A DNA stretch of 38,266 bases from Opitutales bacterium. GTDB lineage: Bacteria > Verrucomicrobiota > Verrucomicrobiia > Opitutales > Oceanipulchritudinaceae. The stretch is from assembly GCA_020831585.1 (NCBI GenBank), contig JAFIGE010000036.1, forward strand, positions 1 to 38,266, read 5' to 3'. Below, piece by piece: positions 20,818 through 30,997 of this stretch (position 1 is the stretch's first letter; each line of letters starts with the position of its first letter). The position numbers and the translations under genes were made by a program. The notes beneath the pieces are model-generated. The model was not told the origin of the DNA. It saw only the letters and a list, made by a program, of their open reading frames with translations, and did no database searches.

Positions 20818-22188
20818 CTAATAGACGTCAACCGGCTCGGCAGGCTGCGTTTTCGGAGGCAGCGATGGCGCCGTCGGGGCCATGCGGCCTTTGCGTCGTT
20901 GCGCGCGGGAACCGTCGGAATCGACTTCGATGGGCTCGGTGATGAGGCGGGCACCCCTGCGGAAGTTCACGTAGGAGTAAAACCATTGCAGCATTACAGC
21001 CAACTTATTGCGGAAGCCCACGAGAAAAACCAGGTGAACGAAGAGCCACGCCAACCACGCGGAGAAGCCCGAAAAGCGCAGGGGTCCAACTTGAGCAACA
21101 GCGCGGGATCGCCCAATTGTGGCCATCGATCCCTTGTCGAAGTAGCGGAAGGGAGGAGGCGGTTTTCTCTCTTTGAGACGCGCCCCGATGGTCTGTCCCA
21201 CATAGCGCCCCATCTGCATCGCGGCAGGCGAGACGCCAGGCACGATCTTGCCCGCCGCATCCTCCACATACGCGATGTCGCCGATGGCAAACACCTCAGG
21301 GTAGCCGGGCAGGGAGAGATCCGGAGCCACCTTCAGGCGACCAGTCCGGTCTTTTTCAACGGGCAAATCATGGGCCAGGGGAACAGCCCTCACGCCCGCT
21401 CCCCACACAATGGTGGCCGCGCGGAGAGTTTCGTCGGCCAACTCAATTTCCCCCGCGCGGATGTCGTTGATCTTTTGTCCGACCCGCACATCCACGCCCA
21501 GCTCTTCCAACTGGCGACTGGCTTTCGCGGAAAGTGCGTCCGGAAAGCCGCGCAAGATGCCCGGAGCCACCTCCAGTAAAACGACCTGCGCCCGTGCGGG
21601 ATCGGTGTTGCGAAAATCGCGGGCAAGCACCCGCTTGGTCAACTCCGCAAACGCGCCGGCCAACTCTACCCCGGTGGGGCCGCCGCCCACCACGACAATG
21701 CGCATGAGGGCCTCGCGCGCTGCCGCATCCCGCTCCCGTTCGGCGCGCTCGAAGGCGAGCAATACGCGATGCCGGATCTCTTGGGCATCCTCCAATGTCT
21801 TCAAGCCCGGAGCGAAAGCTGCCCAGTGATCGTTGCCGAAGTAATTCGTCCGCGCACCGGTGGCGACAATGAGTGAGTCGTAATGGATCGGCCCGCTTTC
21901 GAGCAAGGCCACGCGGCGCTCCTCCGTATCTATGGAAAGAGCTTCGTCCAGAAGCACCCGCACATTTTTCTGACGGCTGAGAATGGCGCGGATCGGCTGG
22001 GCAATCTCCGGGGCAGACAACCCCGCCGTTGCCACCTGATAAAGGAGCGGTTGGAATAAATGGTGATTCGCCCGGTCAATCAGTGTGATCATCACATCGG
22101 CATGTCGCAGCGCGCGGCAACATTCCAAGCCGCCGAAACCTCCGCCGAGGATCACCACGTGATGCTTGTGCCTAAAATCATTTTGCAT
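20818..22188 (-). CDS. ndh: Type II NADH dehydrogenase (NDH-2)
   Basis: Non-proton-pumping NADH:quinone oxidoreductase of 456 residues on the inner face of the membrane. The FAD motif GGGFGGLECC (about 15-24) and the NAD motif VVVGGGPTGVELAGAF (about 167-182) are in the usual order. The pattern FAIGDIAYVED marks the second FAD contact, followed by AAMQMGRYVG. The C-terminal WLAWLFVHLVFLVGFRNKLA hydrophobic stretch matches the membrane-anchoring segment of this family. A basic, proline-rich tail of about 40 residues (AQRRKGRMAPTAPSLPPK) is atypical. The gene stands alone and converges on the YdjM-like gene. Confidence 0.9.
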   Translation of the reverse strand: MQNDFRHKHHVVILGGGFGGLECCRALRHADVMITLIDRANHHLFQPLLYQVATAGLSAPEIAQPIRAILSRQKNVRVLLDEALSIDTEERRVALLESGPIHYDSLIVATGARTNYFGNDHWAAFAPGLKTLEDAQEIRHRVLLAFERAERERDAAAREALMRIVVVGGGPTGVELAGAFAELTKRVLARDFRNTDPARAQVVLLEVAPGILRGFPDALSAKASRQLEELGVDVRVGQKINDIRAGEIELADETLRAATIVWGAGVRAVPLAHDLPVEKDRTGRLKVAPDLSLPGYPEVFAIGDIAYVEDAAGKIVPGVSPAAMQMGRYVGQTIGARLKERKPPPPFRYFDKGSMATIGRSRAVAQVGPLRFSGFSAWLAWLFVHLVFLVGFRNKLAVMLQWFYSYVNFRRGARLITEPIEVDSDGSRAQRRKGRMAPTAPSLPPKTQPAEPVDVY

Positions 22189-22505
22189 GCTCTATTACTA
22201 CCGCCCAAAGCAAGTCCTTGCAAGAAGGGGTGCGCCAAACGGCGGCTGCGCGGTATGGATGGCGGTAAACCGGTTCCGGAGGGCCAAGCGTTTTGGGGCA
22301 GGTCCCACGAACGACCGCGCAGTCGTCAAAAAAAAGCGAGAAACGCGGAAGACTGACTTTTCGTTTGCATCTAAACTAATCGTTCGCAGGAAAAATCCTT
22401 ATCGGTGCTTCGTCTGCTGTCTGTGTGGCGGAGTGTGTTTATTCAGGATTAACCCTATTTAGCTGTTCACCGGCCTCTTCAGGCCCGGTGAACCGTCCTA
22501 ACAAC
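22189..22505. other. Gene-free stretch with leader hairpin
   Basis: These 317 bases lie between the divergent ndh and the five-repeat protein gene. The ndh-proximal part is GC-rich; the rest has A-rich runs (AAAAAAAAGCGAG around 22330). A strong hairpin sits at 22465-22493, just before the start codon. I see no clear Shine-Dalgarno or promoter, and no coding frame of interest. Confidence 0.5.
22465..22493 (+). promoter_or_regulatory. Strong stem-loop in the leader of the five-repeat protein gene
   Basis: GTTCACCGGCCT pairs with AGGCCCGGTGAAC around a CTTC loop, giving a 12-bp stem with a single bulged base. It ends 12 bases before ATG 22506 and no T-run follows, so it is not a normal terminator. 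It could protect the 5' end, control ribosome access or bind a regulator. Confidence 0.65.
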
Positions 22506-22838
22506 ATGAAGAACTTTGCCTCCTTCCTTCATCTTTGCGCGCGCTTCTCCGCTTTTCGCCGGGTTTGGGTTTTGTTGCTCGCCGCAACCCATCCGGCTCT
22601 TGTGAACGGCCAGGCCGCGCCCTGCATTGAGTTCGAGAATTTTGCCGAAGGGACGACCTTCTCCGCCGGGCAAACCATCGCGGAAGCCGGTTTCCCCATG
22701 ACGATCGGGACGTATACGGATGGATCGGAGGTCTCTTTTGAAAGCGCGTTTATGCGGCCTTCAGCCCTCACCAAGGGCAATCGCTGGGCTTTTCGACGGC
22801 CTCCGTGCTCATCGATGTGGGCTGCGCGGAGGAGGTGA
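22506..22838 (+). pseudogene. 5' part of the five-repeat secreted protein gene, cut by a frameshift
   Basis: From ATG 22506 the frame encodes a signal peptide-like start (MKNFASFLHLCARF, then VWVLLLAATHPALVNGQAA) and the beginning of repeat 1 (CIEFENFAEGTTFSAGQTIA). After about residue 88 the family pattern stops and the frame runs to a stop at 22838 through unrelated sequence (RRPPCSSMWAARRR). The expected continuation (HQGQSLGFSTASVLIDVGC) is found one frame away from about 22769. The distance between the first cysteines of repeats 1 and 2 is 458 bp, one short of a multiple of three. A one-base deletion (real or a sequencing error) between about 22742 and 22769 would explain all of this. 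The repaired protein would have about 896 residues. Confidence 0.75.
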
Positions 22839-24936
22839 CTGTGCAAGTCGCCAACGCCGCCGCCGGCATCAATGTGGGCGTCAACGGCATTCTGGAAATC
22901 CTCAAATCTGACAACGACATCCTCGATATCGGAGGCGTCACCGTGATCATCAGCTCCAGCGGGGGCACGGGAGAGATCCGTTTTATTGCCAATCCCACGG
23001 CCATCACCTCCATTCTTTTGGGAGGCGAGGAGTTCTTCATCGATCACGTGTGCGCCTTGCCCTGCGGCGGAAACAGCACCTGCCTTGATTTTGAGAATCT
23101 GGGCAGCCAAGTTTTTACGGCGGGCGATTCTTTCGAGGAGAACGGCCGGGAGGTCCACATCGCCAACTTCGGGGGCGGTGCGGGCGGGACAGCCTCGGCC
23201 TCCGACCGCAATGTCGCCGGCCACCTGGGAGACGAGTTACACCTCGAAGAGGCGACCGCCCTCATTGATTTCGGCTGCGCCTCCGGGCTCTCGATGCGCG
23301 TGAGCCAAAACGAGAACGGCGTCTTCCTTGCCATCAATGGCAGCTCCGCGACCACAAACGACCTCTCCAGCTTCGACGGGCAGACCCTCGGCGGCGTGGC
23401 CATCGAGATCTCCAACGGGCAAATGACGCTCGTGGGCGAGATCGGCACCTTCGAAATCGGCGGCACCTCTCTCTTTCTCGATCATATCTGCGTCGCGCCC
23501 TGCGTTGCCGGGTGTATCGATTTTGAGACGCAGAACGGCGGAGCGGAATTCGGCAAAGGCGACGTCATCCTGGAGGATGGCATTGCCATGCTGGTCGATA
23601 CCTTCCAAAACAACGGCCTCGTGGTGATCGAAGATCGCACCCAACGCGCTGGCCACCTTGGACAAGATGCCGCCCTCTTCGATGCAACCCTCAACGTGGG
23701 CATTCCCTGCTCCTCCGAAGTGTCGCTGCATTTCGGGCAATACGCGGCCGGCGTCATGCTCAGCATCAACGAAGACCGCACCATCGTGACCGAACTGACC
23801 GAACTGAACGGCACGCTGGTCGGCGGGGCGCTTGTGGAGGTGGTGGCCACCCAACTGCACGGCGCGACCATCGGCACGTTGCGCGTAACGGGTGCCAACA
23901 TCTCCGAGTTCACCATCGGCGGTTTCGAACTGGTTGTGGACCACATCTGCCACGTCCCCTGCCCCAACCCCGGATGCGTCGATTTCGAGAACTTCCCGCT
24001 TGGCCAGACATTTTCGCAAGGCGATGTCTTCTTCGAAGAGTTCACCCGCATGACCGTGAGCCGCTTTGGCGGACCCACCGTTCCGGCCCTGGTCACGATC
24101 GGCAACGACAACTTTGCCGGTGGCGGAGGCAAGGAAGCCGTGCTCGACCGGGCGCAGATTAACTTTGATTTCCTCTGCGCGCAGCGCGTCGAGTTTTCCT
24201 ATGCCTTTGTGCCGGGAGGGCTTCCGGGCGTGCGTCTCGGCGTCAATGGGACCAGCTTCCAAGTGAACAATTTCACGATGTTCGACCAGGACACGCTGGG
24301 GGGGGCGGCCATTGAGGTTGTGGGAACGGCAACGGCCGGGCGGGTTATCATCACCGCGCCGGCATTCTCCAACGGCATCACGAGCGTGCTTATCGGGGGC
24401 AACGACCTCGCCATCGACAACATCTGCCACGTGGAGTGCGCGGGCGGGCCCATCTGCATTGGCTTCGACGCCCTGCCCCTCGGGGCCATCTACTCTTGGG
24501 AACTCCTCAACACTTTCCAAATTGGCAACGTCGGTTTCATGCCCAGCCCGCTCACCCTCTCAAATGACGAGATCATCGAAGACGGGCGCATCGTCGTCTC
24601 CGATGAGAAAAAGGCCAACTACGCGGGCCTCGAGCTGCGCTTTGAAAACGCCGCCGTCTCGGTGCTGGCCGGTTGTATGCGCGACGTCTCGTTCCGATTT
24701 GGGCAATACGGAGGCCCAGTCACCCTTTTGATCAACGACGAACGCGTCACGGTAAACTCATTTGCCGAACTCCACGGTCAGTCGCTGGGCGATCCGGCCC
24801 GCGCCATCACCGTTCGCACGCTTCCGGCACCCGGCGGAGAAATTGGGCTCCTGCGCATTGCGGGCGACGTGACTTCACTGGAAATCGGGGGTGAAAACCT
24901 CCACATCGATCAGCTCTGCTATGCCGAATGCCCGGT
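22623..24936 (+). repeat. Five tandem protein repeats of about 145-160 residues
   Basis: Units begin with C-[IVL]-[DEG]-F-[DE] at 22623, 23081, 23513, 23975 and 24455. Each ends with IGG.....[IL]D[HNQ][VIL]C...C just before the next. Spacings are 458 (frameshifted), 432, 462 and 480 bp. Each unit shares the blocks AGHxG, a GC-containing strand, INGxxxxxxxxxxLxGxxLGG and I..F.IGG. The DNA copies have diverged strongly, so the duplication is old. Confidence 0.85.
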
Positions 24937-25195
24937 GGCACTGGAGCTGGGGCGCGCCTTCATCATCAGCGATACGCCCATCAATGCGAGCCAGCGCCAA
25001 ATCGTCGTGGACGTGGAGTTCAGCGGTTCCGGCAGCCTAATTTTGCAGCGCAGCACCACGCTTGCACCCGGCTCATGGACGACGCAAAGCGCCACGGTCA
25101 CCACCCCCGGCGGCCAACCCAACATCCGCCGCTTCACCTTCACCGTGCCCATCAGCCAGGACCGTATCTTCTTCCGGGGCCGCGCCACCCCCTGA
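22805..25195 (+). CDS. Secreted protein with five Cys-flanked tandem repeats (main part)
   Basis: The open frame carries the rest of repeat 1 and repeats 2 to 5, then a C-terminal domain of about 85 residues (ALELGRAFIISDTPINASQ, LILQRSTTLAPGSWTT, RIFFRGRATP) of a kind I associate with verrucomicrobial exoproteins. GTG 22805 is only the first start-like codon in this frame. The frame actually opens after a stop at 22741 and continues the protein whose signal peptide starts at 22506. Each repeat is beta-rich, contains GG and ING turns, and is bounded by cysteine pairs that could form disulfides outside the cell. No enzyme motif is visible. A surface adhesin or carbohydrate-binding scaffold is a guess. 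I know similar CxDFExLPxG repeats only as uncharacterised secreted domains. The pectate-lyase-like gene follows after 33 bp. Confidence 0.75.
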   Translation: MLIDVGCAEEVTVQVANAAAGINVGVNGILEILKSDNDILDIGGVTVIISSSGGTGEIRFIANPTAITSILLGGEEFFIDHVCALPCGGNSTCLDFENLGSQVFTAGDSFEENGREVHIANFGGGAGGTASASDRNVAGHLGDELHLEEATALIDFGCASGLSMRVSQNENGVFLAINGSSATTNDLSSFDGQTLGGVAIEISNGQMTLVGEIGTFEIGGTSLFLDHICVAPCVAGCIDFETQNGGAEFGKGDVILEDGIAMLVDTFQNNGLVVIEDRTQRAGHLGQDAALFDATLNVGIPCSSEVSLHFGQYAAGVMLSINEDRTIVTELTELNGTLVGGALVEVVATQLHGATIGTLRVTGANISEFTIGGFELVVDHICHVPCPNPGCVDFENFPLGQTFSQGDVFFEEFTRMTVSRFGGPTVPALVTIGNDNFAGGGGKEAVLDRAQINFDFLCAQRVEFSYAFVPGGLPGVRLGVNGTSFQVNNFTMFDQDTLGGAAIEVVGTATAGRVIITAPAFSNGITSVLIGGNDLAIDNICHVECAGGPICIGFDALPLGAIYSWELLNTFQIGNVGFMPSPLTLSNDEIIEDGRIVVSDEKKANYAGLELRFENAAVSVLAGCMRDVSFRFGQYGGPVTLLINDERVTVNSFAELHGQSLGDPARAITVRTLPAPGGEIGLLRIAGDVTSLEIGGENLHIDQLCYAECPVALELGRAFIISDTPINASQRQIVVDVEFSGSGSLILQRSTTLAPGSWTTQSATVTTPGGQPNIRRFTFTVPISQDRIFFRGRATP

Positions 25196-25228
25196 TTCTA
25201 GTCATCTTCGGTTTGCTTCAAAAATGTT

Positions 25229-27616
25229 GTGAACACGCCCAATCTGAAACGGCCCGCTGCCTTTGCCTGCCTGATCATCATCCATGGCCTATTGCTCAAC
25301 GCGGTTCCCGCTTCAAGAGCAGACACAGCCATCCGCTACCCCGCCGACGGGGGTGTCATTGACGTGACCAACCTGCCCCCTGGAATCCATGGCGGAATCA
25401 GCGCCGTGCCGGATAACGGCCTCGACGATACCGCCGCCATCCAGGCTGCCCTTGATGCCTTCCCCAACGGCAACCGCATTATCTACTTCCCTAACGGCGT
25501 TTATCATATCTCCGACACCCTGACCTGGCCGGCCGGCGTCCCTGGAGCGACCGACTTCAAGCGCACCATCTTCGAGGGCGAAACACGCGACGGCGTCATC
25601 CTCCGCCTCTTTGATGAGAGCCCGGGCTTCACCGATGCCGCCGCGCCCAAGGCGATGATTTTCACCGGCCCGAGCGCCCCCGCCCAGCGATTCCGCAACG
25701 CCGTGCGCAACCTCACGCTCGACACCGGCAGCGGCAACCCCGGTGCCATCGGCCTGCACTTCTCCGCCAGCAACCAAGGCACCGTGCGCGACGTCACCAT
25801 CCGCTCCGGAGACGGCTCCGGCCTCGTGGGCCTCGACCTTCGCGGCAACGAGAACGGCCCCCTCATGGTGCGCGGCCTGCGCGTCGAAGGCTTCGACAAG
25901 GGAATCTCCATGAATGCCGCCATTAACGGCATCGTCATGGAAGATATCCACGTGGAAGGACAAAATATCCACGGCATCGACGCCACCGGCCAGATCCTGA
26001 CCATCCGCCGCCTCACCAGTGTCAACAGCGTCCCTGCCATTTGGCACGGTGATCCCAATGCCCGCGACGGTGCCGGGGGTTTCGGCGGCATCCCACGCGG
26101 GGGAATGCTCACGCTCCTGGACTCCACCCTCACCGGCACTCCGGGAGCGGAGGCCTTCCCGGCCATTTGGGGCCAGGGCTTCGCCTTTATTCGCGATGTG
26201 CAAACAAGCGGCTACCTGCGTGCCTACCAACGCTCCACTCTCGGCGGTATCAACACTGTCAATACACCCGAAATCACCGAATACGCCCCCACGCCCTTCC
26301 TTCGCCTCTTTGACAACGCCCCCCTCGGCTCCCTGCGCCTCCCCATCGAAGAGATCCCCGAGCCCGCACGCGACCCGGTGGAAACCTGGGTAAACGTAGA
26401 AACCTTCGGTGCCATAAGCGGAGCAGCCGACAGCACCAGCGCCATCCAGGCGGCTATCGACTCCGGTGCGGGCACGGTCTACTTCCCCGGCGGCAAAACC
26501 TTCCGCATCGCCAGCGATCTCTTCGTGCGCGGTTCCGTCAATCGCTTCATCGGCCTCGAAGGCCGCCTCGAATCTGCTCCGGGCACCCGCATTTTTTTCG
26601 AAGAAGGCACCGCCCCGGTCGTCGTTATGGAGCGCTTCTCCGGCTTTCCTTCCATCGTCCACGATGCCACCCGCACTCTCGTCGTGCGCAATATAATCGG
26701 CCACGGCGGGCTCAGTACCGGTTCGGGCGACCTCTTTGTTGAAGATGTTGCCATCGGCGGCTGGCAATTTCTCCATCCCGCCCAACGGGCATGGTTCCGC
26801 CAGCTCAATGTGGAAACCGCTACGGTGACCAACATCCTCAATGCCGGAGCCCGCGTTTGGATACTCGGCCTCAAGACCGAGCGCGACGGTATTAAGATCG
26901 AGACCACCGACGGCGGCTTCACCGAAGTCCTCGGGGCGCACATTTTCGATACCGGTCAACCGCCTCCCGAGATGCCGCTTTTCCGCGTGGAAAATGCATC
27001 GGCCACTTTCGCAGGCGTCGCCACCTCCACCTTCAATAGCACAAACTACCAGATATTGGTCGAGGAAGTGCGGGGCGGCGAAAGCCGTATCCAAAACATC
27101 GCCCCTTTGCCCAACCGCACCAGCGCCAACGGCAAGGTCGTTGGCCTCTTCTCCGCGCGGCACCCCGGCGAAGCCACTCCGACAACGCCGCTCGAAGCCT
27201 GGCGCTTCCGGCATGGATTGCCGATGGACGGAAGCGGGACCGGTGCCAACACCTTTACGCCGGTTCCCGGTGGCCTGCCCAACTTCGCCGCTTACGCCCT
27301 CGGGCTTCCTCCCGGAAGTCCGGCAACAGAGGGCCTTCTCGCCCAAGCCTTTACCCTTGCGGATGGGCTAAGGCTCTCCGTCCGCCAACCCAAGAACCGC
27401 AGGGACATCGACCTCTTCGTGGAAGCGAGTATCGACCTGACATCCTGGGAGACCGTGGCGGCCAGCTACCTCGGCACCCCATTTGAGCTACTCCATCCCG
27501 AAGGCTTCCTGCTCCAAGAGTCTCTCGATCCGAATGGTTTCCGCAACATCCTGGTAACGACTCAACCGAATCCCATTCGCTTCCTGCGCCTCCGCGTAAC
27601 CCTGCCGGTTCAATGA
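25229..27616 (+). CDS. Secreted double pectate-lyase-like (beta-helix) protein
   Basis: This 795-residue protein starts at GTG 25229 (the nearby ATG at 25224 hits a stop at once). A signal peptide spans about 1-32 (AAFACLIIIHGLLLNAVPAS). Two similar domains follow, each opening with the Pectate_lyase_3/GH55 pattern: DNGLDDTAAIQAALDAFPNG with IIYFPNGVYHIS (about 60-95), and ISGAADSTSAIQAAIDSGAG with VYFPGGKTFRI (about 395-430). Each continues as a right-handed beta-helix. A linker (PLEAWRFRHGLP) and a C-terminal domain (NFAAYALGLPPGSPATEG, DLFVEASIDLTSWETV) resemble tails of verrucomicrobial exoproteins. The family includes exo-beta-1,3-glucanases and polysaccharide lyases. I could not place catalytic residues. 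It probably shares a transcript with the five-repeat protein. Confidence 0.82.
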   Translation: MNTPNLKRPAAFACLIIIHGLLLNAVPASRADTAIRYPADGGVIDVTNLPPGIHGGISAVPDNGLDDTAAIQAALDAFPNGNRIIYFPNGVYHISDTLTWPAGVPGATDFKRTIFEGETRDGVILRLFDESPGFTDAAAPKAMIFTGPSAPAQRFRNAVRNLTLDTGSGNPGAIGLHFSASNQGTVRDVTIRSGDGSGLVGLDLRGNENGPLMVRGLRVEGFDKGISMNAAINGIVMEDIHVEGQNIHGIDATGQILTIRRLTSVNSVPAIWHGDPNARDGAGGFGGIPRGGMLTLLDSTLTGTPGAEAFPAIWGQGFAFIRDVQTSGYLRAYQRSTLGGINTVNTPEITEYAPTPFLRLFDNAPLGSLRLPIEEIPEPARDPVETWVNVETFGAISGAADSTSAIQAAIDSGAGTVYFPGGKTFRIASDLFVRGSVNRFIGLEGRLESAPGTRIFFEEGTAPVVVMERFSGFPSIVHDATRTLVVRNIIGHGGLSTGSGDLFVEDVAIGGWQFLHPAQRAWFRQLNVETATVTNILNAGARVWILGLKTERDGIKIETTDGGFTEVLGAHIFDTGQPPPEMPLFRVENASATFAGVATSTFNSTNYQILVEEVRGGESRIQNIAPLPNRTSANGKVVGLFSARHPGEATPTTPLEAWRFRHGLPMDGSGTGANTFTPVPGGLPNFAAYALGLPPGSPATEGLLAQAFTLADGLRLSVRQPKNRRDIDLFVEASIDLTSWETVAASYLGTPFELLHPEGFLLQESLDPNGFRNILVTTQPNPIRFLRLRVTLPVQ

Positions 27617-27727
27617 GAACCTGCCCGGGAGGGAAAGGGACAGGCCAGGCATCAGCGATCGGACCCAGGTGGAAGCGCGTTGTTCGCCCTTGGCAGTGAA
27701 CACGGGTGGCTGAGCGCGCCTCCTCCC

Positions 27728-29347
27728 CTACTCCGACGCGATCAAGCGCAGGTGCTTGTAGGGGACATCGTCGAGGGGTTTGGGTGCCCAGCCGTGAACG
27801 TCGGGATGGAGGAGGAAGAGGTTGTTGGTCCAGTTCATCGGAATGATGGGCATCTCATACATGAGAATCTCTTCCGCTTCGGAGAGAAGAGCGAAGCGCT
27901 CGGCGGGGGTTTCGGCCGCGTCGGAACGGGCAATGAGGGCATCGAACTCGCGGTTGGCGAAGCCGGTGCGGTTGTTGCCGTCGCCCGTGCGCATGATTTT
28001 GAGGAAGGTGCGCGGGTCCATGTAGTCACCGATCCAGCCGAGCATGAATACGTCGAAATTGTAATTGTCGAGTTCGGCGAGGAGGACCTGCCACTCCTTT
28101 GTGGAGACGCGGGCACGCACCCCGAGTTCGCGCCGCCACATCTCCTGAACGACCTCCGCCACCGTGCGGCTCGTGTCGGTATGGGGAATGACAATCTCGA
28201 TCTCGGCGAGACCCTGCCCGTTGGGATGACCGGCTTCGGCGAGGAGACGGCGGGCGCGCTCGGGGTCAAAGAAAAGCTCGGTGCGCACGGGGTAACCTTC
28301 GATGCCGGGAGGGACGAATCCGGCGGCGGGGCGGCCGTTTTTGGTCACCTGATCGATGATGCGACCGGTGTCGAGAGCGGCCCCGAGAGCTTGGCGAACG
28401 AGGCGGCTCTGGAGGTGGGGGCGGTTGGTGTTGATGCCCAGATAGCTTGTCGCAAAATACGGATTCTCCTGCATGATGGCGAGGCCCGAGGCGCGGTAGC
28501 GGTCGCGGCGGTTGAAGGGCAGGCTGTTCGTCACGTGGAGTTGGCCGGCATGAAAGGCGCGGTATTCCGCTTGGCTGTCTTCGATGGGGAAGAAGCGAAT
28601 GCCGTTGAGGTGCACGTTTTCCGCGTCCCAATAGTAAGGGTTGCGCTCCACGGAGATGCGCTGGTTGGGGAGCCATTCGGTGAGACGGAAGGGCCCGTTG
28701 CCGACGAAGTTGGCCGGTCGCGTCCAGCCCGTGCCGCGGTTGGCCACGGCGTTAAACCGCTCCAGCGTGGGCCGGTGCACGGGAAAATACGTGTAGTGCG
28801 TGAGCATGAGCGGAAAATACGGTGCCGCTGCGGTCAGGCGAAAGTGCAGCGTGTGCGGGTCCGGAGCGTGCACACCGACACCCGCAAAATCCGTCAGCTC
28901 GCCCATGTGGAAGGCCTCGGCCCCATCGATGATATAGAGCATGCTCGCATAGGGGGCGGCGAAAAGCGGATTGAGGATGCGCTGGAAGGCGAAGAGGAAA
29001 TCCTCCGCCGTCACGGGATCGCCGTTGGACCAGCGGGCATTGTCGCGCAAAAAGAACGTCCACTCGCGGTAACCCTCGGCGTGCTCCCAATGAGTCGCCA
29101 CACCGGGCTCAACGTAGTTGCTCGAAGTGGGGTGATCGGAAACCAGGCCCTGGAGGATCGATTTGATGACCTTGTGCTCTGGCAGGCCGGTGACGACGTG
29201 CGGATCCAGATCGCGCGGCTCCGCACCCGTGCTGATAAGGAGGATACCGTCGCGCGTGGCCCGCTGCACATCCGTTTCGCGCTGACCACAACCCGCAACA
29301 AAAAGAAGGGTGAAGGGAAGAAAAAGGAAAGGAAGAAGGCGTTTCAT
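27728..29347 (-). CDS. oppA: Oligopeptide ABC transporter substrate-binding lipoprotein
   Basis: Periplasmic binding protein of 539 residues, SBP_bac_5 family. A lipoprotein signal peptide (MKRLLPFLFLPFTLLFVAGC) ends in the lipobox with C20, so it is anchored to a membrane. Family blocks include AEPRDLDPHVVTGLPEHKV, WTFFLRDNARWSNGDPVTAEDF and NPYYWDAENV, as in OppA/DppA. The ligand is probably a peptide, but nickel or sugar binding also occurs in the family. No permease or ATPase genes are adjacent. It converges on the beta-helix gene and is divergent from the AAA-ATPase gene. The opposite strand is open for most of its length, but that frame shows no family pattern. Confidence 0.93.
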   Translation of the reverse strand: MKRLLPFLFLPFTLLFVAGCGQRETDVQRATRDGILLISTGAEPRDLDPHVVTGLPEHKVIKSILQGLVSDHPTSSNYVEPGVATHWEHAEGYREWTFFLRDNARWSNGDPVTAEDFLFAFQRILNPLFAAPYASMLYIIDGAEAFHMGELTDFAGVGVHAPDPHTLHFRLTAAAPYFPLMLTHYTYFPVHRPTLERFNAVANRGTGWTRPANFVGNGPFRLTEWLPNQRISVERNPYYWDAENVHLNGIRFFPIEDSQAEYRAFHAGQLHVTNSLPFNRRDRYRASGLAIMQENPYFATSYLGINTNRPHLQSRLVRQALGAALDTGRIIDQVTKNGRPAAGFVPPGIEGYPVRTELFFDPERARRLLAEAGHPNGQGLAEIEIVIPHTDTSRTVAEVVQEMWRRELGVRARVSTKEWQVLLAELDNYNFDVFMLGWIGDYMDPRTFLKIMRTGDGNNRTGFANREFDALIARSDAAETPAERFALLSEAEEILMYEMPIIPMNWTNNLFLLHPDVHGWAPKPLDDVPYKHLRLIASE

Positions 29348-29443
29348 GTTTCGAACGGTGTGGCATCCGGCGAATTTGGCAAATGCAAGAGATCGAAGCG
29401 TCTTGCCAGCTTGGGCGGCTTGGCCGATGCTCCTCTTCCAAGC

Positions 29444-30997
29444 ATGAGCCTGCCGCGCAAGAAGCTGCCCATCGGCATCCAGAACCTCCGCGAAATCCGC
29501 GACGGGGAGTACTATTACGTGGACAAGAGCAGCTTCGCTGTGCGCTTGGCAGCGGAGGGGAAATACTACTTCCTCTCCCGCCCCCGCCGCTTCGGCAAGA
29601 GCCTCTTTCTCGATACGCTCAAAGAACTCTTCGAGGCCAATCGCCCGCTCTTTGAGGGACTTTATGCGGCGGACAACTGGGATTGGTCAAAAATGCACCC
29701 GGTCATTCGCGTCAGCTTTGCGGGTGCCGTGGGCAAGGATCCGGCGACCTTGCCGCTGCGCCTTCGGGAAATCCTTGCCGAGAACGCGCGCCGCCTTGGG
29801 TTGCAGCCGGCCGGGGGGACGGTCGTGGGCGACTTCGGGCGGCTGATCGAGCAGGCGGCGGAGAAGCATGGGCAAAAAGTGGTTTTGCTCATCGACGAAT
29901 ACGACAAGCCCATCCTCGACAACATCGAGAACAACGAGGTGGCGGAGGCCATGCGCGACGGCCTGCGCGATTTTTACTCCGTCATCAAGGGCGCCGATCC
30001 GCATTTGCGCTTCGTTTTTCTCACCGGGGTGAGCAAGTTTTCCAAAGTCAGCCTCTTTTCCGGGCTGAACAACCTCAACGACATCACCCTCGACGCCCGC
30101 TACTCCGCTCTCTGTGGCTATACCGAGGCGGATGTTGACTCGGTCTTCGCGCCCGAGCTGGAAGGCCTTGACCGGGCACAAATCCGCGAATGGTACAACG
30201 GCTACAACTGGACGGGCGAGCCCGTTTACAACCCCTTCGACCTGCTCCTGCTTTTCGACAAGCGCGAGTTCAAAGCCTGGTGGTATGGCACCGGCACCCC
30301 GACCTTCCTCATGAAGTTGCTCGCCCGGCGGGAGCGGTTTCTGCCCGAGCTGCAGGACCTCCTCGTGGATGATTTGCTCCTCTCCACCTTCGATGTGGAC
30401 AACATCCCCACGGAATCCCTGCTCTTCCAGACGGGCTACCTCACGATCGGGGAGAAGCAGGCTTTTCCGAGCAAGACGCTCTACCGTCTAAAGTATCCCA
30501 ATCTGGAGGTTTACCAGAGTCTGATGGATGGCCTTTTGCGCGATTGGACGCCGACCGCACGGGCAGCCACGCAGGCGCAAGTGAAGCTCTATGACCTCCT
30601 CGAAAAGCACGACCTCCCCGGCATCGGTCGCCTGATGGCGGGCTTCTTCGAATCGATCCCGCACCAGTGGTACATGAAAAACCCCATTGCCCAATACGAG
30701 GGCTACTACGCCAGCGTGTTCTACGCCTTCTTCGCTTCGCTGGGGCTACCCATCACGGTGGAGGAATCGAGCAATGCGGGACGCCTCGACATGGTTGTGC
30801 GTTTCCGCGAACGCGCCCTCATTTTCGAGTTCAAACTCGTCGACAGCGAGGCTACGGCCTCCGGAAACAGTGCCCTCGCCGCCATCAAGGAGCGTGGCTA
30901 CGCCGACCGCTACCGCGCGGAGGGTTTTCCTGTGGACTGCGTGGGCATCGAGTTCAGCCGCAAACACCGCCGCATCGTCGCCTGGGATGTGGAGTAG
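29444..30997 (+). CDS. AAA-ATPase-like protein with C-terminal PD-(D/E)XK nuclease domain (DUF1703)
   Basis: This 517-residue protein belongs to a widespread, poorly understood family. The N-terminal block KKLPIGIQNLREIRDGEYYYVDKS is the usual start, followed by the Walker A-like RPRRFGKSLFLDTL (46-59), the Walker B VVLLIDEYDKPIL (about 146-158) and FVFLTGVSKFSKVSLFSGLNNL. The C-terminal domain carries a nuclease-like core: GRLDMVVRF then ALIFEFKL (D...ExK). The function is unknown; members are often multicopy and suspected to be selfish or defence-related. The ATG at 29444 is chosen from the conserved N terminus. The frame is open far upstream only because it is antisense to the oppA gene. 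A 69-bp gap separates it from mutY. Confidence 0.9.
   Translation: MSLPRKKLPIGIQNLREIRDGEYYYVDKSSFAVRLAAEGKYYFLSRPRRFGKSLFLDTLKELFEANRPLFEGLYAADNWDWSKMHPVIRVSFAGAVGKDPATLPLRLREILAENARRLGLQPAGGTVVGDFGRLIEQAAEKHGQKVVLLIDEYDKPILDNIENNEVAEAMRDGLRDFYSVIKGADPHLRFVFLTGVSKFSKVSLFSGLNNLNDITLDARYSALCGYTEADVDSVFAPELEGLDRAQIREWYNGYNWTGEPVYNPFDLLLLFDKREFKAWWYGTGTPTFLMKLLARRERFLPELQDLLVDDLLLSTFDVDNIPTESLLFQTGYLTIGEKQAFPSKTLYRLKYPNLEVYQSLMDGLLRDWTPTARAATQAQVKLYDLLEKHDLPGIGRLMAGFFESIPHQWYMKNPIAQYEGYYASVFYAFFASLGLPITVEESSNAGRLDMVVRFRERALIFEFKLVDSEATASGNSALAAIKERGYADRYRAEGFPVDCVGIEFSRKHRRIVAWDVE

Follow-up and report, generated by a model that had tools for sequence, protein, structure and literature searches.

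To understand what a large, presumably secreted protein made of cysteine-bounded tandem repeats does for its host, and with which partner, we analysed a 38,266-nucleotide stretch of DNA (the window) from an Opitutales bacterium of the Verrucomicrobiota (GCA_020831585.1, contig JAFIGE010000036.1). An initial annotation, made from the sequence alone, had placed a single gene for five diverged repeats at 22465-25195 and proposed a disulfide-stabilised adhesive or glycan-binding scaffold, possibly forming an undescribed surface system with the adjacent beta-helix protein. Our sequence comparisons and structure predictions indicate that the repeat is a rare, uncatalogued domain family, in the libraries searched, on a familiar fold. 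The domain order of the array is probably old, and its pairing with the neighbouring gene is not conserved in relatives.

The repeat domain and its fold

The five repeats follow each other on the plus strand at 22623-23065 (repeat 1, about 148 residues across two frames and interrupted by a frameshift near 22,753), 23081-23503 (repeat 2, 141 residues), 23513-23962 (repeat 3, 150 residues), 23975-24439 (repeat 4, 155 residues), and 24455-24931 (repeat 5, 159 residues). We built an independent profile from 23 repeats of five homologous loci (L051, L052, L053, L046, and L047), without the window and its three nearest relatives (L048, L049, and L050), and searched with Z set to 4000. It recovered all five window repeats: repeats 2-5 completely, with E-values from 7.5e-32 to 2.6e-40, and repeat 1 in two parts (3.4e-16 and 6.7e-06). 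Of 200 shuffled copies of the window protein, not one came up at E <= 10. Among themselves, repeats 2-5 match with E-values from 1.2e-06 to 1.8e-16. The five diverged, Cys-bounded tandem repeats of the initial annotation are thus confirmed by the independent profile and the shuffled controls, with spans of 141-159 residues.

Each window repeat begins with CxxF and closes with IDxxCxxxC or a near variant. The CxxF part of the previously described CxxFE start holds in every window repeat, and the glutamate (Glu5) occurs in 33 of 42 repeats counted. A fourth, central cysteine, absent from the earlier description, is present in every window repeat. The census of 42 repeats covered nine proteins; it omits the broken repeat 1 of the window and lacks the L053 repeats past the contig end. 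Every repeat has Phe4 and Asp143, no tryptophan is found among the conserved columns, and the full set of four cysteines occurs in 36. Forty repeats contain both Cys1 and Cys146, and two contain neither. Cys66 and Cys150 agree in 39 repeats (36 present, 3 absent), as do Cys1/Cys150 and Cys146/Cys150, and Cys66 agrees with Cys1 or Cys146 in 36 each. Only the Cys1-Cys146 pair is singled out, because its members never occur apart, which reflects about one loss event. We infer two disulfides per domain, Cys1-Cys146 by co-loss and Cys66-Cys150 by elimination. The proposed disulfide-stabilised, secreted tandem scaffold is probably right in this respect, as all 42 repeats have either both Cys1 and Cys146 or neither.

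We modelled repeat 3 with AlphaFold2, using 33 repeats from the window and the named relatives as input. The model is a nearly all-beta domain with a predicted local distance difference test (pLDDT) score of 96.2 and a predicted template-modelling (pTM) score of 0.89, which strongly supports a jelly-roll beta-sandwich for the one repeat that was modelled on its own. The top structural match is the K2 cleaved-adhesin domain of gingipain Kgp (Z 9.8, root-mean-square deviation (r.m.s.d.) 2.8, 117 aligned residues). An astacin containing a MAM domain (Z 9.5), of which we take the aligned region to be that domain, CBM4-2 (Z 9.4, r.m.s.d. 3.1, 123 aligned residues), and a putative pectate lyase carbohydrate-binding domain (Z 9.2) are tied with it within one Z unit. 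The confident beta-sandwich predicted for a single repeat is a jelly roll common to adhesin and carbohydrate-binding domains. The FE at the N-terminus of the repeat and the aspartate near its C-terminus presumably resemble the structural Ca2+ site of the CBM4/9/22 class. A Foldseek search among viral models gave no match at E <= 0.001. The model of the full 796-residue protein has a pLDDT of 79.5 and a pTM of 0.47, and its structural matches include reelin, with a high r.m.s.d. over several domains. A review describes reelin sub-repeats as CBM-like jelly rolls that bind Ca2+ on their convex side and notes a comparable calcium site in both CBMs and cleaved adhesins (PMC4882317).

No Pfam or NCBIfam model exceeded its cut-off for the window protein or for 33 repeats, nor did any Pfam model for a set of 14 repeats. 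PF02018, cleaved-adhesin, and MAM models gave no row at E <= 1 in the Pfam scans of the window protein, the 14 repeats, and the 33 repeats, and searches of PDB sequences returned nothing better than E 0.25. The domain was thus correctly called undescribed as far as the searched libraries are concerned. At the sequence level, no membership in CBM_4_9 (PF02018) was found: the hhalign probability is 1.8% in a comparison with 12 PF02018 members from the bacterial family of the window. Separately, one genome of this family carries nine CBM_4_9 domains clustered in neighbouring frames (G004:C1:1397374-1403238). We also rejected the PEP-CTERM family NF038120, which is far under its cut-off and reached an hhalign probability of 7.6% on a two-row profile. 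It gave no row for the window protein, and of seven further proteins two matched weakly (E 0.0044 and 0.014), scoring 15.3 and 16.9 bits where the cut-off is 80. In the wide genome search, many of its matches were confined to the end of the profile that corresponds to the PEP-CTERM tail.

An interrupted gene with a probably old domain order

The coding region is not one reading frame, and the single gene span of the initial annotation has to be revised. The first frame (22425-22838, plus strand) contains the ATG at 22506, the signal peptide, and the first third of repeat 1, as read from the open reading frame (ORF) listing and from a match covering positions 1-38 of the repeat profile (E 6.7e-06). 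The second frame (22805-25195, plus strand; 796 residues as listed), open from at least 22757, continues with the remainder of repeat 1 and then encodes repeats 2-5 and the C-terminal tail. The gene thus consists of two overlapping frames split within repeat 1 by a one-base frameshift near 22,753, which parts the signal peptide from the rest of the protein. Intact copies were found in other genomes. The nearest intact homologue (L048), from a metagenome-assembled genome (MAG) labelled Haloferula sp. CSSed162cmB_42, encodes 897 residues and is 77% identical.

How should the frameshift be read? The alignment of the window with L048 shows a single gap of one base, at about 22,753; elsewhere in the coding region, gap lengths are all divisible by three. 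The ratio of nonsynonymous to synonymous substitution rates (dN/dS) between these two genes is 0.048 over 43 codons upstream of the break, where dS is 2.76 and near saturation, and 0.187 over 794 codons downstream. For comparison, the dN/dS between the five-repeat genes of L049 and L050 is 0.193. These values strongly support purifying selection on both sides of the break. Because both sides have low dN/dS, the frameshift would be either a one-base sequencing or assembly error or a very recent gene break. That the window copy is a recent pseudogene with a real frameshift is possible but somewhat doubtful. The 1-base gap and the lack of a single frame open across the break speak for it, but the remaining gaps all preserve the frame, the low dN/dS on either side implies that any loss was very recent, and in a draft genome of 262 contigs (98.5% complete) the gap may be a single-base assembly error. 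This question is separate from the function of the intact homologues.

The history of the array was followed by a tree of 42 repeats labelled R1-R5 by position. The tree requires eight label changes (minimum four) versus a mean of 26.1 after shuffling, and not one of 200 shuffles reached so few. In the window, L048, L049, and L050, R2-R5 cluster by position with full support. For the distant homologues, we scored one profile per position, made from the window group, on the 23 repeats of L051, L052, L053, L046, and L047. The collinear assignment, R1 to R1 through R5 to R5, was the best of all 120 orders in all four complete distant proteins, which amount to about three independent cases because L046 and L047 are congeners. 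A five-domain order common to the window and the distant homologues is therefore strongly supported by these sequence comparisons, and the simplest reading would be one ancestral five-domain protein that kept its domain order.

The domain appears to be spread thinly over Verrucomicrobiota, Kiritimatiellae, Bacteroidota, and Pseudomonadota. Within the bacterial family, 3 of 17 genomes contain the repeats, as do at least 5 of 387 genomes drawn from the phylum, and a broader profile found repeats in at least 4 of 384 genomes of the class. These sets overlap and include the genome of the window, and the wide searches scored no more than 8-10 first-look candidates in each genome, which makes their counts lower bounds. 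A scan of named genome contigs returned 74 candidate stretches and seven relatives, three of them apparently already in the other genome sets. All seven complete genes (L048, L049 (=L018), L050 (=L017), L051 (=L045), L052, L046, and L047) have five repeats, as does the broken window gene; L053 runs off its contig within the fourth repeat. Assignment of L053 to Wenzhouxiangella is doubtful, possibly due to mis-binning, because it lies on a 3,010-base contig with the sample label of the Kiritimatiellae copy and its repeats are nearest that copy. Four of the seven named loci carry CSSed16 labels, a label used in a study of Cock Soda Lake, the brine of which is alkaline and saline (PMC6704655). 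Another study describes a cultured Opitutales family from soda lakes as alginate users (PMC13274419), which we do not equate with the group of the window genome.

Single-domain relatives occur in Bacteroidota and Pseudomonadota. In Bacteroidota, at least 1 of 395 genomes, the Saprospiraceae genome used as the centre of the set, has two copies of the domain; the protein that carries one of them also matches dockerin and cohesin weakly, under the cut-offs. In the phylum of the Wenzhouxiangella MAG, at least 2 of 398 genomes match, namely the MAG itself and a 5.4 Mb genome encoding a lipoprotein-like single-domain protein. The plasmid pHALHY01 of Haliscomenobacter hydrossis encodes WP_013768983.1, a single domain after a signal-like start. 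Four such relatives matched the 33-repeat profile, of which L054 was itself a row, with E-values from 5.9e-12 to 3.1e-31, and a 29-repeat profile without L054 with E-values from 9.8e-12 to 8e-19. By eye, these relatives look surface-exposed, as judged from the lipoprotein-like protein and the signal-like start in H. hydrossis. The Saprospiraceae protein L054:2-3058 also has Cys-rich tandem repeats of another kind (about 90 residues, "GNGxxYGxF" and "LPVxLGPFxGDG" by eye), followed by one CxDFE domain and the weak dockerin/cohesin matches, with no Pfam family over cut-off. Full-length queries found no match in the plasmid and phage collections, where a single-domain query found one plasmid gene, which as a query matched itself only; the viral_contigs collection held nothing for the window protein. 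In limited querying of the literature, we found no described five-domain Verrucomicrobiota protein of this kind.

Possible roles of the array and its neighbourhood

A Sec-type signal peptide is predicted at 22506-22610 on the plus strand (MKNFASF...LLAATHPALVNGQA), as read by eye from the translation, and the intact homologues start with a similar signal-peptide-like sequence; secretion of the five-repeat protein is predicted from this reading. The protein is acidic (92 D+E versus 35 K+R). Its C-terminus, ...FFRGRATP, has no PEP motif or membrane stretch by eye.

With moderate confidence, we propose that the protein is an extracellular five-domain binding or adhesive scaffold with putative ligands. 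The gene would encode, or would have encoded until recently, an acidic secreted protein in which a small beta-rich tail follows five jelly-roll domains that are ancient and differ from one another. Outside the cell, the domains may align as a multivalent scaffold and bind polysaccharide, matrix, or a cell surface via their loops or faces, in a mode like that of tandem cleaved-adhesin, CBM, or reelin-type arrays. The five diverged domains suggest multivalent binding, and the fold and the disulfide model, together with the excess of acidic residues, would fit a protein enduring high pH and salt outside the cell. More broadly, we tentatively regard the repeat as an unnamed, disulfide-stapled extracellular jelly-roll family that may have been assembled once into an ordered five-domain adhesin or matrix binder of five specificities, mostly in Verrucomicrobiota of alkaline lakes. 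The five specificities are suggested because each position keeps its own identity.

Several observations weigh against the proposed scaffold. A common fold does not demonstrate function, and the binding role is putative. Foldseek alone found no PDB match for the repeat 3 model at E <= 0.001, and the Z of 9.8 is only modestly above the best Z of 7 to 8 typical of models without a clear match. The whole-protein model makes a row of beta domains plausible, but with a pTM of 0.47 it does not place them reliably relative to each other. The second disulfide pairing, Cys66-Cys150, is weak, as other cysteine pairs agree equally well (39/42) and the losses amount to about three events. When the distant proteins are included, R1 is the only position that forms a single group, and weakly so (49/82); R2-R5 need two to three changes each, and the best match is at the same position in only 14 of 23 distant repeats. 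The 796 residues contain two Trp and six Tyr, and the homologues counted have two to seven Trp; such sparsity weakens classic aromatic-platform glycan binding without excluding it. Finally, if the frameshift is real, the window copy is not made whole.

Could the array be mainly a structural spacer or matrix component, such as a sheath, a stalk, or an S-layer-like element, without specific ligand binding? The constant number and order of the domains, the probable disulfide stapling, the acidic composition, and the lack of tryptophan in the conserved columns would all suit a spacer. We nevertheless consider it unlikely, since the positions have diverged and are partly position-specific, which suggests different roles, and since a pure spacer leaves the single-domain proteins unexplained.

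The binding scaffold that we favour would act alone, not as a dedicated partner of the pectate-lyase-like protein. This adjacent secreted protein (25229-27616, plus strand) was described correctly as a double pectate-lyase-like one: its ORF begins 33 bp past the stop of the five-repeat gene (25195 to 25229) on the same strand and contains two PF12708 stretches. We could read the downstream flank in L048, L049, L050, L052, and L046, only the upstream flank in L047, and too little flank in L051 and L053. A pectate-lyase-like gene follows the five-repeat gene in none of the five relatives with a readable flank, and none was found in the upstream flanks. According to Pfam scans of twelve neighbouring proteins, the neighbours differ: two sulfatase-like ORFs upstream (one Pfam-confirmed) and an M28 peptidase downstream on the other strand in L048, an S1-domain protein and a DEAD helicase in L052, and DUF1611 and HerA-like genes in L046. 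L049 and L050 have a common downstream protein of no family (455 and 512 residues as listed). A different protein, a PF13229 right-handed beta-helix with a GH141_M match just below cut-off (L047:5217-7427), lies 228 bp upstream in L047, which ends 72 bases downstream, and is absent next to its congener L046. Five other genomes of the family encode long homologues of the lyase-like protein (E <= 3.3e-39); three of these genomes lack the repeat protein (G003, G005, and G011), and two have both on separate contigs (G009 and G010). A broader tally of 10 of 17 genomes includes the window genome and tail-only or short-stretch matches. From synteny in the readable flanks, we reject a conserved operon, and the pairing, as far as gene order tells, is a local accident of neighbourhood, contrary to the surface system with the beta-helix protein that had been suggested: the pair is not conserved in relatives, an outcome that the initial annotation had itself named as refuting its proposal.

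That the repeats are carbohydrate-binding modules serving the adjacent enzyme in a two-gene polysaccharide-acting system is quite improbable: it would draw on the same-strand 33-bp spacing, the PF12708 domains, the CBM4 and pectate-lyase carbohydrate-binding domains among the best folds, the beta-helix gene of L047, and the sulfatase-like ORFs of L048, but the neighbour is missing in all five readable relatives, the congeners L046 and L047 differ upstream, three family genomes have the long lyase homologue without the repeat protein, no CBM_4_9 sequence relation is detectable by hhalign, and Trp is scarce.

The beta-rich C-terminal tail (24938-25195, plus strand) was aligned between the window and five complete homologues (L046 and L047 were not aligned), with 24 to 80% identity to the window. 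We found no support for the tail as a general sorting signal, as few tail matches occur beyond the own genes in the genomes scanned. The search returned the five-repeat gene and one marginal place (E 0.005) in the window genome, three weak further places in G401, no further place in G308, none at all in G404, and, as the sole match in G403, a different secreted protein upstream. At L053:1-855, on the same strand and some 630 bp upstream of the repeats' own gene, a different protein with a DUF11 domain also carries this tail domain at its C-terminus.

Further features were observed around the locus. A perfect 8-bp inverted repeat (TTCACCGG / CCGGTGAA, 11-nt loop, by eye) at 22466-22492 ends 13 bases before the ATG at 22506. 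A promoter and terminator scan of 22150-27800 stayed near shuffle level, with one promoter-like site versus 0.9 and eight terminator-like sites versus 6.0 (sd 1.8). Further downstream, a 1,105-residue ORF (27680-30997, plus strand) has AAA-ATPase_like and PDDEXK_9 matches only from residue 597 on, and its first half is overlapped by a minus-strand ORF (27728-29347) for a clear SBP_bac_5 solute-binding protein (E 3.1e-89). Because the domains lie in the second half and because of this overlap, the ATPase gene probably begins close to 29,400 in reality.

Comparison with known systems

As the fold is common, the finding is modest, not startling. It nevertheless provides a definable, modelled domain family for proteins that no family model covers (one is annotated as hypothetical only), in host organisms regarded as soda-lake users of polysaccharides. 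The ordered five-domain array with its diverged positions may serve as a tractable case for the diversification of multivalent extracellular binding proteins.

The protein WP_013768983.1 on the plasmid of H. hydrossis has one copy of the same domain after its signal-like start (E 1.1e-20), in contrast to the five of the window protein, and is annotated as a hypothetical protein only. NF038120 PEP-CTERM proteins resemble the repeat, by eye, in the arrangement of an N-terminal (N/D)FE and a C-terminal LDN/VDN(I), but the window protein has no PEP-CTERM tail and the scores of 15.3 and 16.9 bits stay far from 80. Among structural relatives, the CBM4/9/22-type modules (PF02018) share the fold, with Z from 8.9 to 9.4 for the CBM4-2 variants, but differ in sequence (hhalign 1.8%), and the window protein is poor in Trp and Tyr. 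MAM domains and reelin repeats are likewise extracellular jelly-roll domains, with Z of 9.4-9.5 for MAM-containing proteins, but they have no Pfam sequence match here and belong to eukaryotic proteins. The gingipain cleaved adhesins (Kgp K1-K3 of Porphyromonas gingivalis) are jelly-roll beta-sandwiches of which several reside in one secreted protein, as in the window protein, which, unlike the gingipain, has no protease domain and shows no Pfam sequence match to them.

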